Positions 16,177 to 25,892 of a stretch of 64,000 bases of DNA are shown piece after piece (the stretch's first letter is position 1; each line of letters opens with the position of its first letter). Source of the DNA: Nitrospirota bacterium (lineage in GTDB: Bacteria; Nitrospirota; Thermodesulfovibrionia; Thermodesulfovibrionales; Magnetobacteriaceae). The notes beneath the pieces are model-generated. The model worked only from the letters and a program-made list of their open reading frames with translations, had not been told where the DNA came from and searched no databases. The stretch lies in NCBI GenBank assembly GCA_015233895.1, contig JADFXG010000004.1, positions 1 through 64,000 on the forward strand, read 5' to 3'. A program made the translations under genes and the position numbers.

Positions 16177-19107
16177 ATGGTTCAGTTTGGCAATAACAAA
16201 ACATCACTACTTGCCAACTCCGCAAGCTTCATAGCAATCGTCTTTGTGTTTATAATAGCAGTCGGACTGAACACTCCAACCGTTACCTCTGCCGCTGAGC
16301 CGCCCTCTGAGCCAATTCTCCGTATTAATACCGAAATGCACACAGCAGGAATATTCGGAATCGGAGTTGATGCAGAAAACAAATATCTTGTAACCGGCTC
16401 AGGTGACAAAACGGTAAAAGTGTGGGACATTCGTGACTTTAGTTCAGTAAAACTTATACAAACCCTCAGAGTACCTATTGGTGAGGACAGAGAAGGGAAA
16501 ATATTTGCGGTTGCAATATCTCCCGATGGTAAAACTATAGCTTGTGGCGGTTATACAGGATACGATTGGGATAAATCTCATTCTATTTATATATTTGACA
16601 GACAGACTGGAAAACTAAAACAACATATAACAGATCTGCCTGATATTATATATTATCTCGTATATTCTAAAGATGGCAGGTTTCTTGCTTCTACACTAAG
16701 ACACAATGGCATACGGATATATAAAGCTAATGATTATTCACTGGCAGCCTCTGACAGTGATTATGGAGATAGAAGTCTATGCGCTGATTTTGACAAAAAT
16801 GGCAGGCTCGTTACATCATCTTATGATGGTAATATACGGCTTTATGACAATACTTTCAAGCTCATATCAAAGGAAAAAACAAAAAGCGGTACGCAATCTC
16901 GTTCAGTTAGTTTCTCGCCTGATGGCTCTAAGATAGCAGTTGGATTTGACGAAACAGATAAGGTGGATATTCTTTCAGGCAGAGACCTTTCTTATAAATA
17001 CTCTCCTGATACAACGGGTTTAGATGCCTTTTCTTATAATGTTTCCTTCTCCTGTGATGGTAAATACCTATATGCCGGTTATAGAAAGCCCGAAGGCAAC
17101 CGGCAAATAAATATTAGAAAATGGCCAAATGAAGAGAAAGGTACATACAAAGACATAATAAATGTTGCAGGCAATACTATTAACCAAATTTTACCACTTA
17201 ACAACGGCGGTATTGTTTTGTGCTCTCACGATCCTTCATTTGTCATACTTGATAAAAATGATGGAAAAGTTGTTTGTAAAACAGGTTATAATGCCGATTA
17301 CAGAGGAAACAGAGAGGGGTTTCAAATTTCAAAAGATGCTAAAACCATCAGGTTCTGGTATGAAAATAAAGGTAAGTTTCCTAAATTGTTTTCGCTGACA
17401 GAAAGAGAATTGTCAGATGTTTCAAATTTAAAAGAAGGCCTCCTTAAACCGATTTTAAAATCTGAGAGATTAAATATTACAAACTGGCATAATAATATTG
17501 ATCCAGAATTAAATGGTACAGCCTTGAAACTTGAGAAGTACGAAACATCAAGAAGCCTTGCGATATTTCCTGACAGCAGCAGTTTTTTGCTTGGTGCAGA
17601 CAGGTATTTAAGGCTTTTTGACAGTTACGGCAGGGAAAACTGGAATATTGTTGCACCCGGTGCAGCTTGGGACGTAAACGTATCTCAAAATGGAAAAATA
17701 GCGGTAGCGGCTTATGCAGATGGGACTATTCGATGGTACAGGGTAAGTGACGGTAAGGAGCTTTTGGCGTTTTTCCCGCATAATGACAAAAAGAGATGGG
17801 TACTATGGACGCCAAAAGGATATTACGATGCCTCGGTAGGCGGTGATGATTTAGTTGGTTGGCATTTAAACAGAGGTAAAGACAAAGAGGCGGATTTCTT
17901 CCCCGCTTCAAAATTCCGCTCTACTTATTACAGACCCGATATTGTCTCAAAAGTACTCGATACTCTTGACGAAGATGAGGCAGTAAGACAAGCAAATGAA
18001 CAAGCTAACAGAAAAACGCAAACCGTAACAATTACTGAAAAGCTGCCCCCTGTTGTTAGAATACTTTCACCATCATCAGGGGCTGAAGTAGCCAATACGT
18101 CGCTGACGGTAAGGTATGAACTCCGCACACAGGATGATGCTCCGGTTACATCTATAAAGGTTTTAGTAAACGGAGAAAGACAAGACTCTGAAAAAGGCAT
18201 CACGGTAAAACCAAACGAAGGTACCTCTAACGAGGTAAAGGTAACAATCCCTGGCAAAGATAGTGAAATTGCAATAATAGCAGAAAACAGAAACTCAGCC
18301 AGCGAACCGGCAATCGTGTTTGTAAGATGGTGCGGGGCTGTTAAAAAAGACGATGAGTTTGTGATAAAGCCTAAACTTTACATCCTTGCCATCGGGGTGA
18401 ACAGATACAAAGACAAGGAGTTGAGATTAGCATATTCGTCAAAGGATGCAACAGACTTTGCTGGGGTCATGAAAACACAAAAAGGCAAACTCTATCGTGA
18501 TGTTGAGATAAAGGTTATAACTGATGAAAATGCTTCGAAGGTAAACGTATTGGATGGGCTGGATTGGATTCAAAAACAGGTGACAAGTAAAGACATAGCT
18601 ATGGTACTGCTTTCCGGGCACGGTGTAAACGACTCAAACGGAGTATATTATTATCTGCCTGCCGATGTGGACACAGAGAGGTTAAAAAGTACAGCGGTGC
18701 CGTTTTCAGAAATAAAAAGCACAGTGAGCGCTCTTGCTGGTAAGACGCTATTTTTTATAGACACCTGCCACTCAGGAAATGTGATGGGGGGCCGCAAGGG
18801 GTTAGATGATATAAACGGAGTAATAAACGAATTAACGAGCGCTGAAAACGGCGCAATTGTCTTTGCAGCCTCAACAGGCAGGCAGTATTCATTGGAGGAC
18901 CCATCATGGGGTAACGGAGCTTTCACTAAGGCGGTGGTTGAGGGCCTTTCGGGCAAAGCTGACATGAAAGGCAGCGGCAGGATAACCGTTAACATGCTTG
19001 ATTTATATATATCCGAACGTGTTAAGGAACTAACAAAAGGTAAACAGACGCCAACAACGACTAAACCCGCTACCGTACCGGATTTCCCAATAGCGGTTGT
19101 GAAGTAG
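16177..19107 (+). CDS. membrane-anchored or secreted WD40-caspase (C14) protein
   Basis: 976 aa. A hydrophobic segment at about residues 14-36 is a signal peptide or anchor. WD40-like repeats follow (GSGDKTVKVWDIRD near 75, SPDGKTIACGG, SPDGSKIAVG), to about residue 560. Next are an Ig-like segment (PPVVRILSPSSGAEV near 630) and a peptidase C14 caspase domain from about 725. The catalytic pair is present: His815 in LLSGHGVND and Cys864 in FFIDTCHSGN. Such caspase-like proteases (orthocaspase type) usually cleave after basic or acidic residues and can be switched by ligand sensing. The WD40 part may be the sensor. It has a good ribosome site (CGGAGGG) and appears monocistronic. Confidence 0.88.
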   Translation: MVQFGNNKTSLLANSASFIAIVFVFIIAVGLNTPTVTSAAEPPSEPILRINTEMHTAGIFGIGVDAENKYLVTGSGDKTVKVWDIRDFSSVKLIQTLRVPIGEDREGKIFAVAISPDGKTIACGGYTGYDWDKSHSIYIFDRQTGKLKQHITDLPDIIYYLVYSKDGRFLASTLRHNGIRIYKANDYSLAASDSDYGDRSLCADFDKNGRLVTSSYDGNIRLYDNTFKLISKEKTKSGTQSRSVSFSPDGSKIAVGFDETDKVDILSGRDLSYKYSPDTTGLDAFSYNVSFSCDGKYLYAGYRKPEGNRQINIRKWPNEEKGTYKDIINVAGNTINQILPLNNGGIVLCSHDPSFVILDKNDGKVVCKTGYNADYRGNREGFQISKDAKTIRFWYENKGKFPKLFSLTERELSDVSNLKEGLLKPILKSERLNITNWHNNIDPELNGTALKLEKYETSRSLAIFPDSSSFLLGADRYLRLFDSYGRENWNIVAPGAAWDVNVSQNGKIAVAAYADGTIRWYRVSDGKELLAFFPHNDKKRWVLWTPKGYYDASVGGDDLVGWHLNRGKDKEADFFPASKFRSTYYRPDIVSKVLDTLDEDEAVRQANEQANRKTQTVTITEKLPPVVRILSPSSGAEVANTSLTVRYELRTQDDAPVTSIKVLVNGERQDSEKGITVKPNEGTSNEVKVTIPGKDSEIAIIAENRNSASEPAIVFVRWCGAVKKDDEFVIKPKLYILAIGVNRYKDKELRLAYSSKDATDFAGVMKTQKGKLYRDVEIKVITDENASKVNVLDGLDWIQKQVTSKDIAMVLLSGHGVNDSNGVYYYLPADVDTERLKSTAVPFSEIKSTVSALAGKTLFFIDTCHSGNVMGGRKGLDDINGVINELTSAENGAIVFAASTGRQYSLEDPSWGNGAFTKAVVEGLSGKADMKGSGRITVNMLDLYISERVKELTKGKQTPTTTKPATVPDFPIAVVK

Positions 19108-24281: not shown

Positions 24282-24737
24282 TCAATTGTTTCCATAGAAA
24301 TTCAGGTTTTTCTTTTTGTCGTTGATATCGGAATTAATATGGTTTGCTCCCTTAGTTTTGACTACCATAGTTACCTTATTGCCCCGTTCGTTGAAAAACA
24401 GGGTAAATCCTGTTTCCACTATTAACCAAAGCCCCCTTCCACGCGCATTTGAAAGAGGAGGACATTGTGTCGGTATTGTATGCGGAGGACCGTTTCCTTC
24501 ATCTTCAATGGAAAAAGTTAATAACTCTGAAGTCATCTCCCATTCAATGAAGATTTTACGGCCAGTCTCAAATTTATTGCCGTGTTCCTGAGCGTTTATA
24601 AGAAGTTCGATTAACGCTGATTTGATATTGAAAATTTCTTGTTTATTACCAAAAGCAAAATCCTCTAAAACAGGACTAATCTCGTTTGCAAACAGTTCAA
24701 TCTGTTCGTCTGTACTAAAAATTGTGCGTTTATACGT
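24282..24737 (-). CDS. RsbW-like serine kinase (GHKL), probable ACG start
   Basis: About 151 aa if begun at ACG (24737-24735), which lies 6 nt after a good AAGGAG (24749-24744). The only ATG in frame (24536) would yield 84 aa and delete the N box ALIELLINAQEHGNK, so it cannot be the real start of a working kinase. The G1 box is EDEGNGPP and the G2 box is GRGLWLI, as in anti-sigma GHKL kinases. No ATG, GTG or TTG is available upstream within the frame back to the TAG of the phosphatase gene. Either ACG/AUU initiation, read-through from the phosphatase or a sequence error is needed. Confidence 0.7.
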   Translation of the reverse strand, partial: TYKRTIFSTDEQIELFANEISPVLEDFAFGNKQEIFNIKSALIELLINAQEHGNKFETGRKIFIEWEMTSELLTFSIEDEGNGPPHTIPTQCPPLSNARGRGLWLIVETGFTLFFNERGNKVTMVVKTKGANHINSDINDKKKNLNFYGNN

Positions 24738-24740
24738 AAA

Positions 24741-25892
24741 CTACTCCTTTTCTATAATTATGATAGTTATGTCATCATCGAATTTGCTGGTGAAGTTTTG
24801 CATTTCACAAACAAGAGCGTCTTTCATATCCTCGGATGATAAAGAAGAATTTATTCTCATAAAATTTATAAGGTTGTCTGTTCCGAAGGGTTTGCCCTCA
24901 GGGTTGACTGCTTCAATCAGACCGTCCGTGTAAATAAGCAAGCGATCGCCCTGCTTAAACTCAAACGCCACTTCTTGTACATTCACCTCTGGAAACATAC
25001 CAAGTGGGGAGCCAGAGGATGTTAACTCGATTACATCCTCACCGCTTAACAAAAGCGGAGCGGGTTGCCCTGCATTAGAGAATATAAAATTTTTCTGATT
25101 AAAAATCAAATACATACATGCCACGAAGCTATTTTCCTGAGACAACAAGTCATAAATATCGCTGTTTATGCCTGATAGGAATTCAGAGGGATGAAGGGAT
25201 GGCGCCGGGTAATAGTCAATGGTGGATAAAATCCGCATTGACATAAGCGCTGCCGATACGCCGTGACCACAAGTGTCGGCAAAAAAAAGTCCGGCTTTAC
25301 CTGTAACCATTGCTTTTGAGAAAAAGAAATCTCCCGAAATATCTGCTGCAGGACTATTAAACAATACTACTTTTAGTCCGGCATTTATAAGATTTTTCTT
25401 GGTTTCCTGCGTGTTTGTCAGGAATTTTTTTTGAACCCTTGCGGCGTAGTGAAGATCGGCTGTTCTTTCCTTTTCCAGAGCATTCTTTGCCTTCACAGCA
25501 ATAGATTTGGAGGAATATGCTTTTACGCGAGCCTGTAGTTCTGCCGGTTTAAACGGTTTACTTATGAAATCATCGGCGCCAAACTCATGGGCCTTTTTAA
25601 TCTCATTGGCTTCACAAGTAATTACGGATGTCAGTATAATCACAGGAATTTCTTTGGTGTCAACATCTTTTCTTAATTCTGCCAAAGCGGTGTAACCATC
25701 CATTACCGGCATCACAATATCCAGTATGATGAGATCAGGTTTATGTTCCCTCGCAAGCCTTAGCCCCTCCTGTCCGTTTTCGGCAAGAATAACTTCATTG
25801 CCATCCTTTTCAAGATAAGCTTTACAAAGGAGACGAATGCTTTTATCGTCATCTGCGATTAACACCTTAATATTAGCAGGTATTTTGCTCAT
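24741..25892 (-). CDS. REC-PP2C phosphatase response regulator (RsbU-like)
   Basis: 383 aa. Residues about 9-125 form a receiver domain: VLIADDDKSIR, phospho-Asp in LIILDIVMPVMDGY, ILTSVITCE and SKPFKPAEL. A short linker leads to a SpoIIE/PP2C phosphatase domain: FNSPAADISGDFFFSKAM, FADTCGHGVSAALMSM, GQPAPLLLSG and LLIYTDGLIEAVNPEG, ending in DDDITIIIIEK. It should dephosphorylate the neighbouring STAS antagonist when the receiver is phosphorylated. The stop overlaps the ribosome site of the RsbW-like gene, indicating tight coupling. Confidence 0.92.
   Translation of the reverse strand: MSKIPANIKVLIADDDKSIRLLCKAYLEKDGNEVILAENGQEGLRLAREHKPDLIILDIVMPVMDGYTALAELRKDVDTKEIPVIILTSVITCEANEIKKAHEFGADDFISKPFKPAELQARVKAYSSKSIAVKAKNALEKERTADLHYAARVQKKFLTNTQETKKNLINAGLKVVLFNSPAADISGDFFFSKAMVTGKAGLFFADTCGHGVSAALMSMRILSTIDYYPAPSLHPSEFLSGINSDIYDLLSQENSFVACMYLIFNQKNFIFSNAGQPAPLLLSGEDVIELTSSGSPLGMFPEVNVQEVAFEFKQGDRLLIYTDGLIEAVNPEGKPFGTDNLINFMRINSSLSSEDMKDALVCEMQNFTSKFDDDITIIIIEKE

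Follow-up and report, generated by a model that had tools for sequence, protein, structure and literature searches.

The stretch of DNA analysed here, called the window (64,000 nucleotides), carries on its minus strand three neighbouring genes (Table 1). The first encodes an RsbU-like phosphatase with a receiver domain (Response_reg, E=5.8e-29) and a SpoIIE-type PP2C domain (PF07228, E=1.1e-40, both in Pfam), and it is 97% identical to its counterpart in a sister species. The second is an RsbW-type serine kinase frame (PF13581, E=1e-11, over the cut-off), in which the N box (ELLINAQEHGN) and the G1 and G2 boxes (motifs DEGNG and GRGLW) are all intact. The third, a divergent STAS-like gene, falls outside the interval 24282-25892 to which the original prediction was confined. 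There is no sigma factor gene in or beside the operon. The three genes probably form a partner-switching operon consisting of a receiver-PP2C phosphatase, an RsbW-type kinase translated from an ACG codon and a divergent STAS-like substrate, and this joint reading of gene order and kinase start is the one we consider likely.

Table 1. Features of the candidate partner-switching operon (positions in the window)
Feature	Position	Strand	Remarks
RsbU-like receiver-SpoIIE (PP2C) phosphatase gene	25892-24741	minus	383 aa, ATG start, TAG stop
Shine-Dalgarno sequence AAGGAG	24749-24744	minus	identical with the last two phosphatase codons AAG GAG (Lys-Glu)
Phosphatase stop codon TAG	24743-24741	minus	in frame with the kinase
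Proposed kinase start codon ACG	24737-24735	minus	6 nt past AAGGAG
RsbW-type serine kinase (HATPase_c_2) frame	24282-24737	minus	151 aa from ACG; stop at 24282
Third gene, divergent STAS-like	24246-23908	minus	112 aa; invariant Ser54

Read on the minus strand, the junction between phosphatase and kinase is GAA AAG GAG TAG, TTT and then ACG TAT AAA CGC ACA ATT. The original prediction had held that the kinase boxes are intact, that ATG, GTG and TTG are absent between the TAG and the N box, and that AAGGAG precedes the ACG at the spacing given in Table 1, and the sequence bears out each of these points. The first ATG of the frame is at 24536, past the N box, and the output of the ORF caller for the kinase is a fragment of only 84 aa. 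Taken alone, such a gap is not rare, as stretches of 44-68 codons without a canonical start have frequencies of 10% and 4% in the genes of the window. A Shine-Dalgarno sequence at this spacing, on the other hand, is rare: only 0.25% of random positions have AAGGAG 4-9 nt ahead of them. The other near-cognate codons ahead of the N box are ATT, CTG and ATC, and it is very unlikely that the kinase begins at one of these: AUU is a natural start codon of infC and cvfC1 (PMC13009471, PMC13068326) and ATT occurs four times ahead of the N box, but none of the ATT, CTG and ATC codons in this region has a Shine-Dalgarno sequence at a proper distance, the first ATT being 21 nt from AAGGAG, and the ATG of an orthologue described below aligns with the ACG and not with any of them.

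The operon was looked for in 60 related genomes and in named genome contigs. It was found in one sister species (G003, JADFYB010000008.1, a Nitrospirae metagenome genome), in which the kinase has 96% protein identity and the ACG, the TAG and the AAGGAG are identical, with synonymous differences on both sides of them. An ATG misread as ACG would be only one transition, and metagenome assemblies do hold errors; however, the same ACG stands in two separate assemblies, and because these differ in 3-8% of bases across the region, a base error shared by both is extremely unlikely and sequencing error was rejected as an explanation. In a member of another genus of the same family (G005, contig 68), a syntenic kinase orthologue of 58% identity has the junction ATC GAG AAA GAA TAA CTT ATG AGT AAA TGC ACG ATT TTT AGT. 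Its ATG aligns exactly with the ACG of the window, the spacing of stop, one codon and start is identical, and the protein before the kinase ends in FDDDxTIIIIEKE in both. Since the orthologue has ATG at this exact position within a matching layout, an ordinary start has most likely been replaced by ACG. The comparison with relatives that the original prediction had proposed gave ACG for the sister species and a homologous ATG for G005; the genes are fused only in G244, a genome of the same order. ATG or GTG is available in the other kinase homologues of the family that were examined, as well as in both of the remaining RsbW-type kinases that stand alone in the own genome, and a wider search of the phylum (396 genomes) did not find a further ACG kinase.

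The two ACG-bearing species also allow selection on the kinase frame to be estimated, although they are close (dS ~0.09 in the kinase) and few substitutions stand behind the test. Of the changes between them in the whole frame, 8 are synonymous and 6 non-synonymous (dN/dS 0.19), and residues 1-128 have 7 and 2, respectively (dN/dS 0.075). With a dN/dS of 0.89, residues 129-151, the C-terminal tail, are almost free of constraint. For comparison, dN/dS is 0.05-0.26 in neighbouring real genes and mostly 0.28-2.4 in antisense or chance frames, of which one is at 0.11. The binomial p is ~5e-4 for the core and 0.003 for the whole frame; a conservative site ratio raises these values to 4e-3 and 0.03. 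These figures indicate that purifying selection acts on the kinase frame between the two species. There are no non-synonymous changes in codons 1-70, and this constraint at the protein level counts for the ACG, because initiation at the internal ATG would leave these codons untranslated. Coding selection was found here on a frame that has no AUG, GUG or UUG at the homologous start, and this is one of the marks of bacterial genes with non-AUG initiation. The most parsimonious history would be a change of ATG to ACG before the split of the two species, with the protein constrained afterwards.

The same change might instead have silenced the kinase and left a young pseudogene, with the phosphatase and the third protein working without it. 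ACG mismatches the initiator anticodon at its middle base and should initiate only very weakly, the tail of the kinase is nearly free to change, and two of the four genus genomes are without an orthologue of the operon, all of which fit a dying gene. Nevertheless, this is unlikely, as the frame is open and its boxes are intact in both species, the core has few non-synonymous changes (dN/dS 0.075, p ~5e-4 to 4e-3, as given above), and a strong Shine-Dalgarno sequence at perfect spacing has been retained in both. The switch system itself is dispensable, given its absence from two of the four genus genomes. In one genus member (G001, L095:4000-7100) the syntenic site has genes for a histidine kinase with PAS and GAF domains, a receiver protein and a receiver-GGDEF protein in place of the switch operon, and with this site occupied by other genes the operon was either lost in G001 or acquired by the ancestor that G000 and G003 share.

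The original prediction had offered non-AUG initiation and stop read-through side by side. Read-through of the TAG would yield a fused receiver-phosphatase-kinase like CrsR and HsbR, which are fusions (PMC6482189), with the separate phosphatase as the main product. Phosphatase and kinase do share one frame, and G244 has a fused receiver-PP2C-HATPase gene together with third genes of the same kind. On the other hand, the orthologue in G005 has TAA followed by its own ATG, kinase and phosphatase are out of frame in two paralogous operons of G005, TAG is an ordinary stop codon in the window (10 of 37 genes), and a strong Shine-Dalgarno sequence at perfect spacing would serve no purpose. No tRNA with a CTA anticodon (amber suppressor) is among the 44 tRNAs found in the own genome, and amber recoding by a suppressor tRNA was rejected on this ground. 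Read-through in the operon of the window is thus quite unlikely. Initiation at ACG, the other half of the proposal, is supported by the ACG of the sister species, the homologous ATG, purifying selection and the strong Shine-Dalgarno sequence; the relatives, the selection, the anti-Shine-Dalgarno sequence, the tRNA set and the TAA of the relative together favour it over both of its rivals, read-through and a dead gene.

The translation machinery of the own genome is of the usual kind. Its 16S rRNA has a canonical anti-Shine-Dalgarno sequence, and its tRNAs include a normal CAU initiator and no CGU initiator-like tRNA among the 44 found; an altered initiator tRNA or anti-Shine-Dalgarno sequence was accordingly rejected as an explanation, both being ordinary. 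The predicted duplex of Shine-Dalgarno and anti-Shine-Dalgarno sequences is -8.4 kcal/mol for the ACG copy versus -3.0 kcal/mol for the ATG orthologue of G005, a difference due to synonymous Lys-Glu codons, AAG GAG in the window and AAA GAA in G005. AAG GAG accounts for 17 of the 84 Lys-Glu pairs in the window, and local RNA structure at the start is not beyond chance (z 0.81, -0.98 and -1.10). A ribosome terminating at the TAG sits over AAGGAG, 3 nt from the ACG. Ribosomes reinitiate efficiently only where stop and start overlap or lie very close together, and the 3-nt gap lies in the range where termination-reinitiation works (PMC10666635).

Termination-reinitiation is probably the mode of starting at the ACG. 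Ribosomes would end the phosphatase at the TAG, where AAGGAG, which forms its last two codons, can keep the 30S subunit in place, and a fraction of them would reinitiate 3 nt further on at the ACG, decoded as fMet by the ordinary initiator tRNA. Such a weak start would make the yield of kinase low and couple it to translation of the phosphatase, and scarce kinase would shift the third protein towards the unphosphorylated state, so that the receiver could flip the switch easily. We infer that initiation takes place at ACG and is inefficient, that reinitiation couples it to the phosphatase, and that regulation is affected in this way. The arrangement suggests that a weak translation start is used for keeping the kinase scarce, and the low kinase-to-phosphatase ratio raised in the original prediction would fit it. 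Whether it has been selected as a dose-setting device, in which a termination-coupled natural ACG fixes a low kinase-to-phosphatase ratio and synonymous strengthening of the Shine-Dalgarno sequence keeps the codon usable, is a tentative proposal to which we give somewhat less than an even chance.

The third gene accompanies the kinase in the sister species, in all three operons of G005, in G013 and in G244, and its family is present in only 5 of the 396 phylum genomes sampled. The protein of the window has no Pfam STAS match, and 2 of 11 homologues match STAS weakly (best E 0.013). A profile of the third protein matched STAS proteins of the own genome with E=5e-4 and a probability of 31%, and it did not match a control profile. 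The AlphaFold model is poor (pLDDT 44.5), and a profile search of the PDB with the third protein gave chance matches only. Ser54, which is invariant, lies at or adjoining the STAS phospho-site; from this residue and the gene order, the third protein is probably the substrate or antagonist of the kinase. In G244 (contig 64; L075, L078 and L081), the fused gene is followed by three tandem STAS-like third genes.

Several known systems resemble the operon in part. In CrsR-CrsA of Shewanella oneidensis and HsbR-HsbA of Pseudomonas aeruginosa, receiver, PP2C and GHKL kinase/anti-sigma modules act on a STAS antagonist (PMC6482189). The order of modules is the same in the window, but there they form one fused protein, whereas here the genes are separate with a TAG between them (TAA in G005), the kinase would start at ACG, and the sequence of the third protein shows no more than a marginal STAS signal. 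With RsbU/RsbW/RsbV and SpoIIE/SpoIIAB/SpoIIAA the operon shares a SpoIIE-type phosphatase, an RsbW-type kinase that bears the N, G1 and G2 boxes, and a small third protein; unlike them it is without a sigma factor gene, and the equivalog scores of its kinase are far under the cut-offs (spIIAB, 20.5 against 135 bits; RsbW, 15.3 against 145 bits).

As for the start codon, changing that of rsbW in Listeria monocytogenes to ATA or ATT lowers RsbW and raises SigB activity (PMC13068326). This too is a weak non-canonical start on a switch kinase, in an operon with overlapping genes, but it was selected in the laboratory, while the ACG of the window is common to two species. In Staphylococcus, the conserved AUU/AUA starts of infC, ccpN and cvfC1, with extended Shine-Dalgarno sequences, limit the dose of regulators (PMC13009471). 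A conserved non-AUG start supported by a strong Shine-Dalgarno sequence is common to both cases; those starts, however, are third-base near-cognates, whereas the ACG has its mismatch at the middle base and would be coupled to the stop codon of the gene before it. The literature searched yielded no bacterial ACG start that is both natural and validated, a result that does not prove that none exists. Neither partner switches nor weak non-AUG starts are new in themselves, but a conserved ACG start on a switch kinase would be. If initiation at the ACG is true, it would be a natural, species-conserved bacterial ACG start, situated on a protein whose dose sets the output of the switch in Listeria, and it would allow a direct test of whether termination-reinitiation can rescue a start codon that is mismatched at its middle base. 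In addition, gene callers limited to ATG, GTG and TTG miss or truncate this kinase, and the switch then looks incomplete.

Some further observations concern the relatives and the rest of the window. In G005 contig 68 (L027:6327-8951), the phosphatase of the orthologous operon is without a receiver, and a metallo-beta-lactamase-like gene precedes it; this gene recalls ODP-type oxygen sensors and is perhaps a different input into the same switch. A paralogous phosphatase in G005 contig 105 (L028:5542-7700, minus strand) has one in-frame TAG, NKL*LSNAGQP versus NKIIFSNAGQP in homologues, and with the rest of the gene intact it may be a pseudogene, a base error or a case of read-through. Within the window, positions 13-2893 encode two tandem paralogous secreted proteins made of YIYTSTDSGATW-type repeats, and positions 16177-19107 encode a large protein with apparent WD40-type repeats and then a caspase-like peptidase domain.
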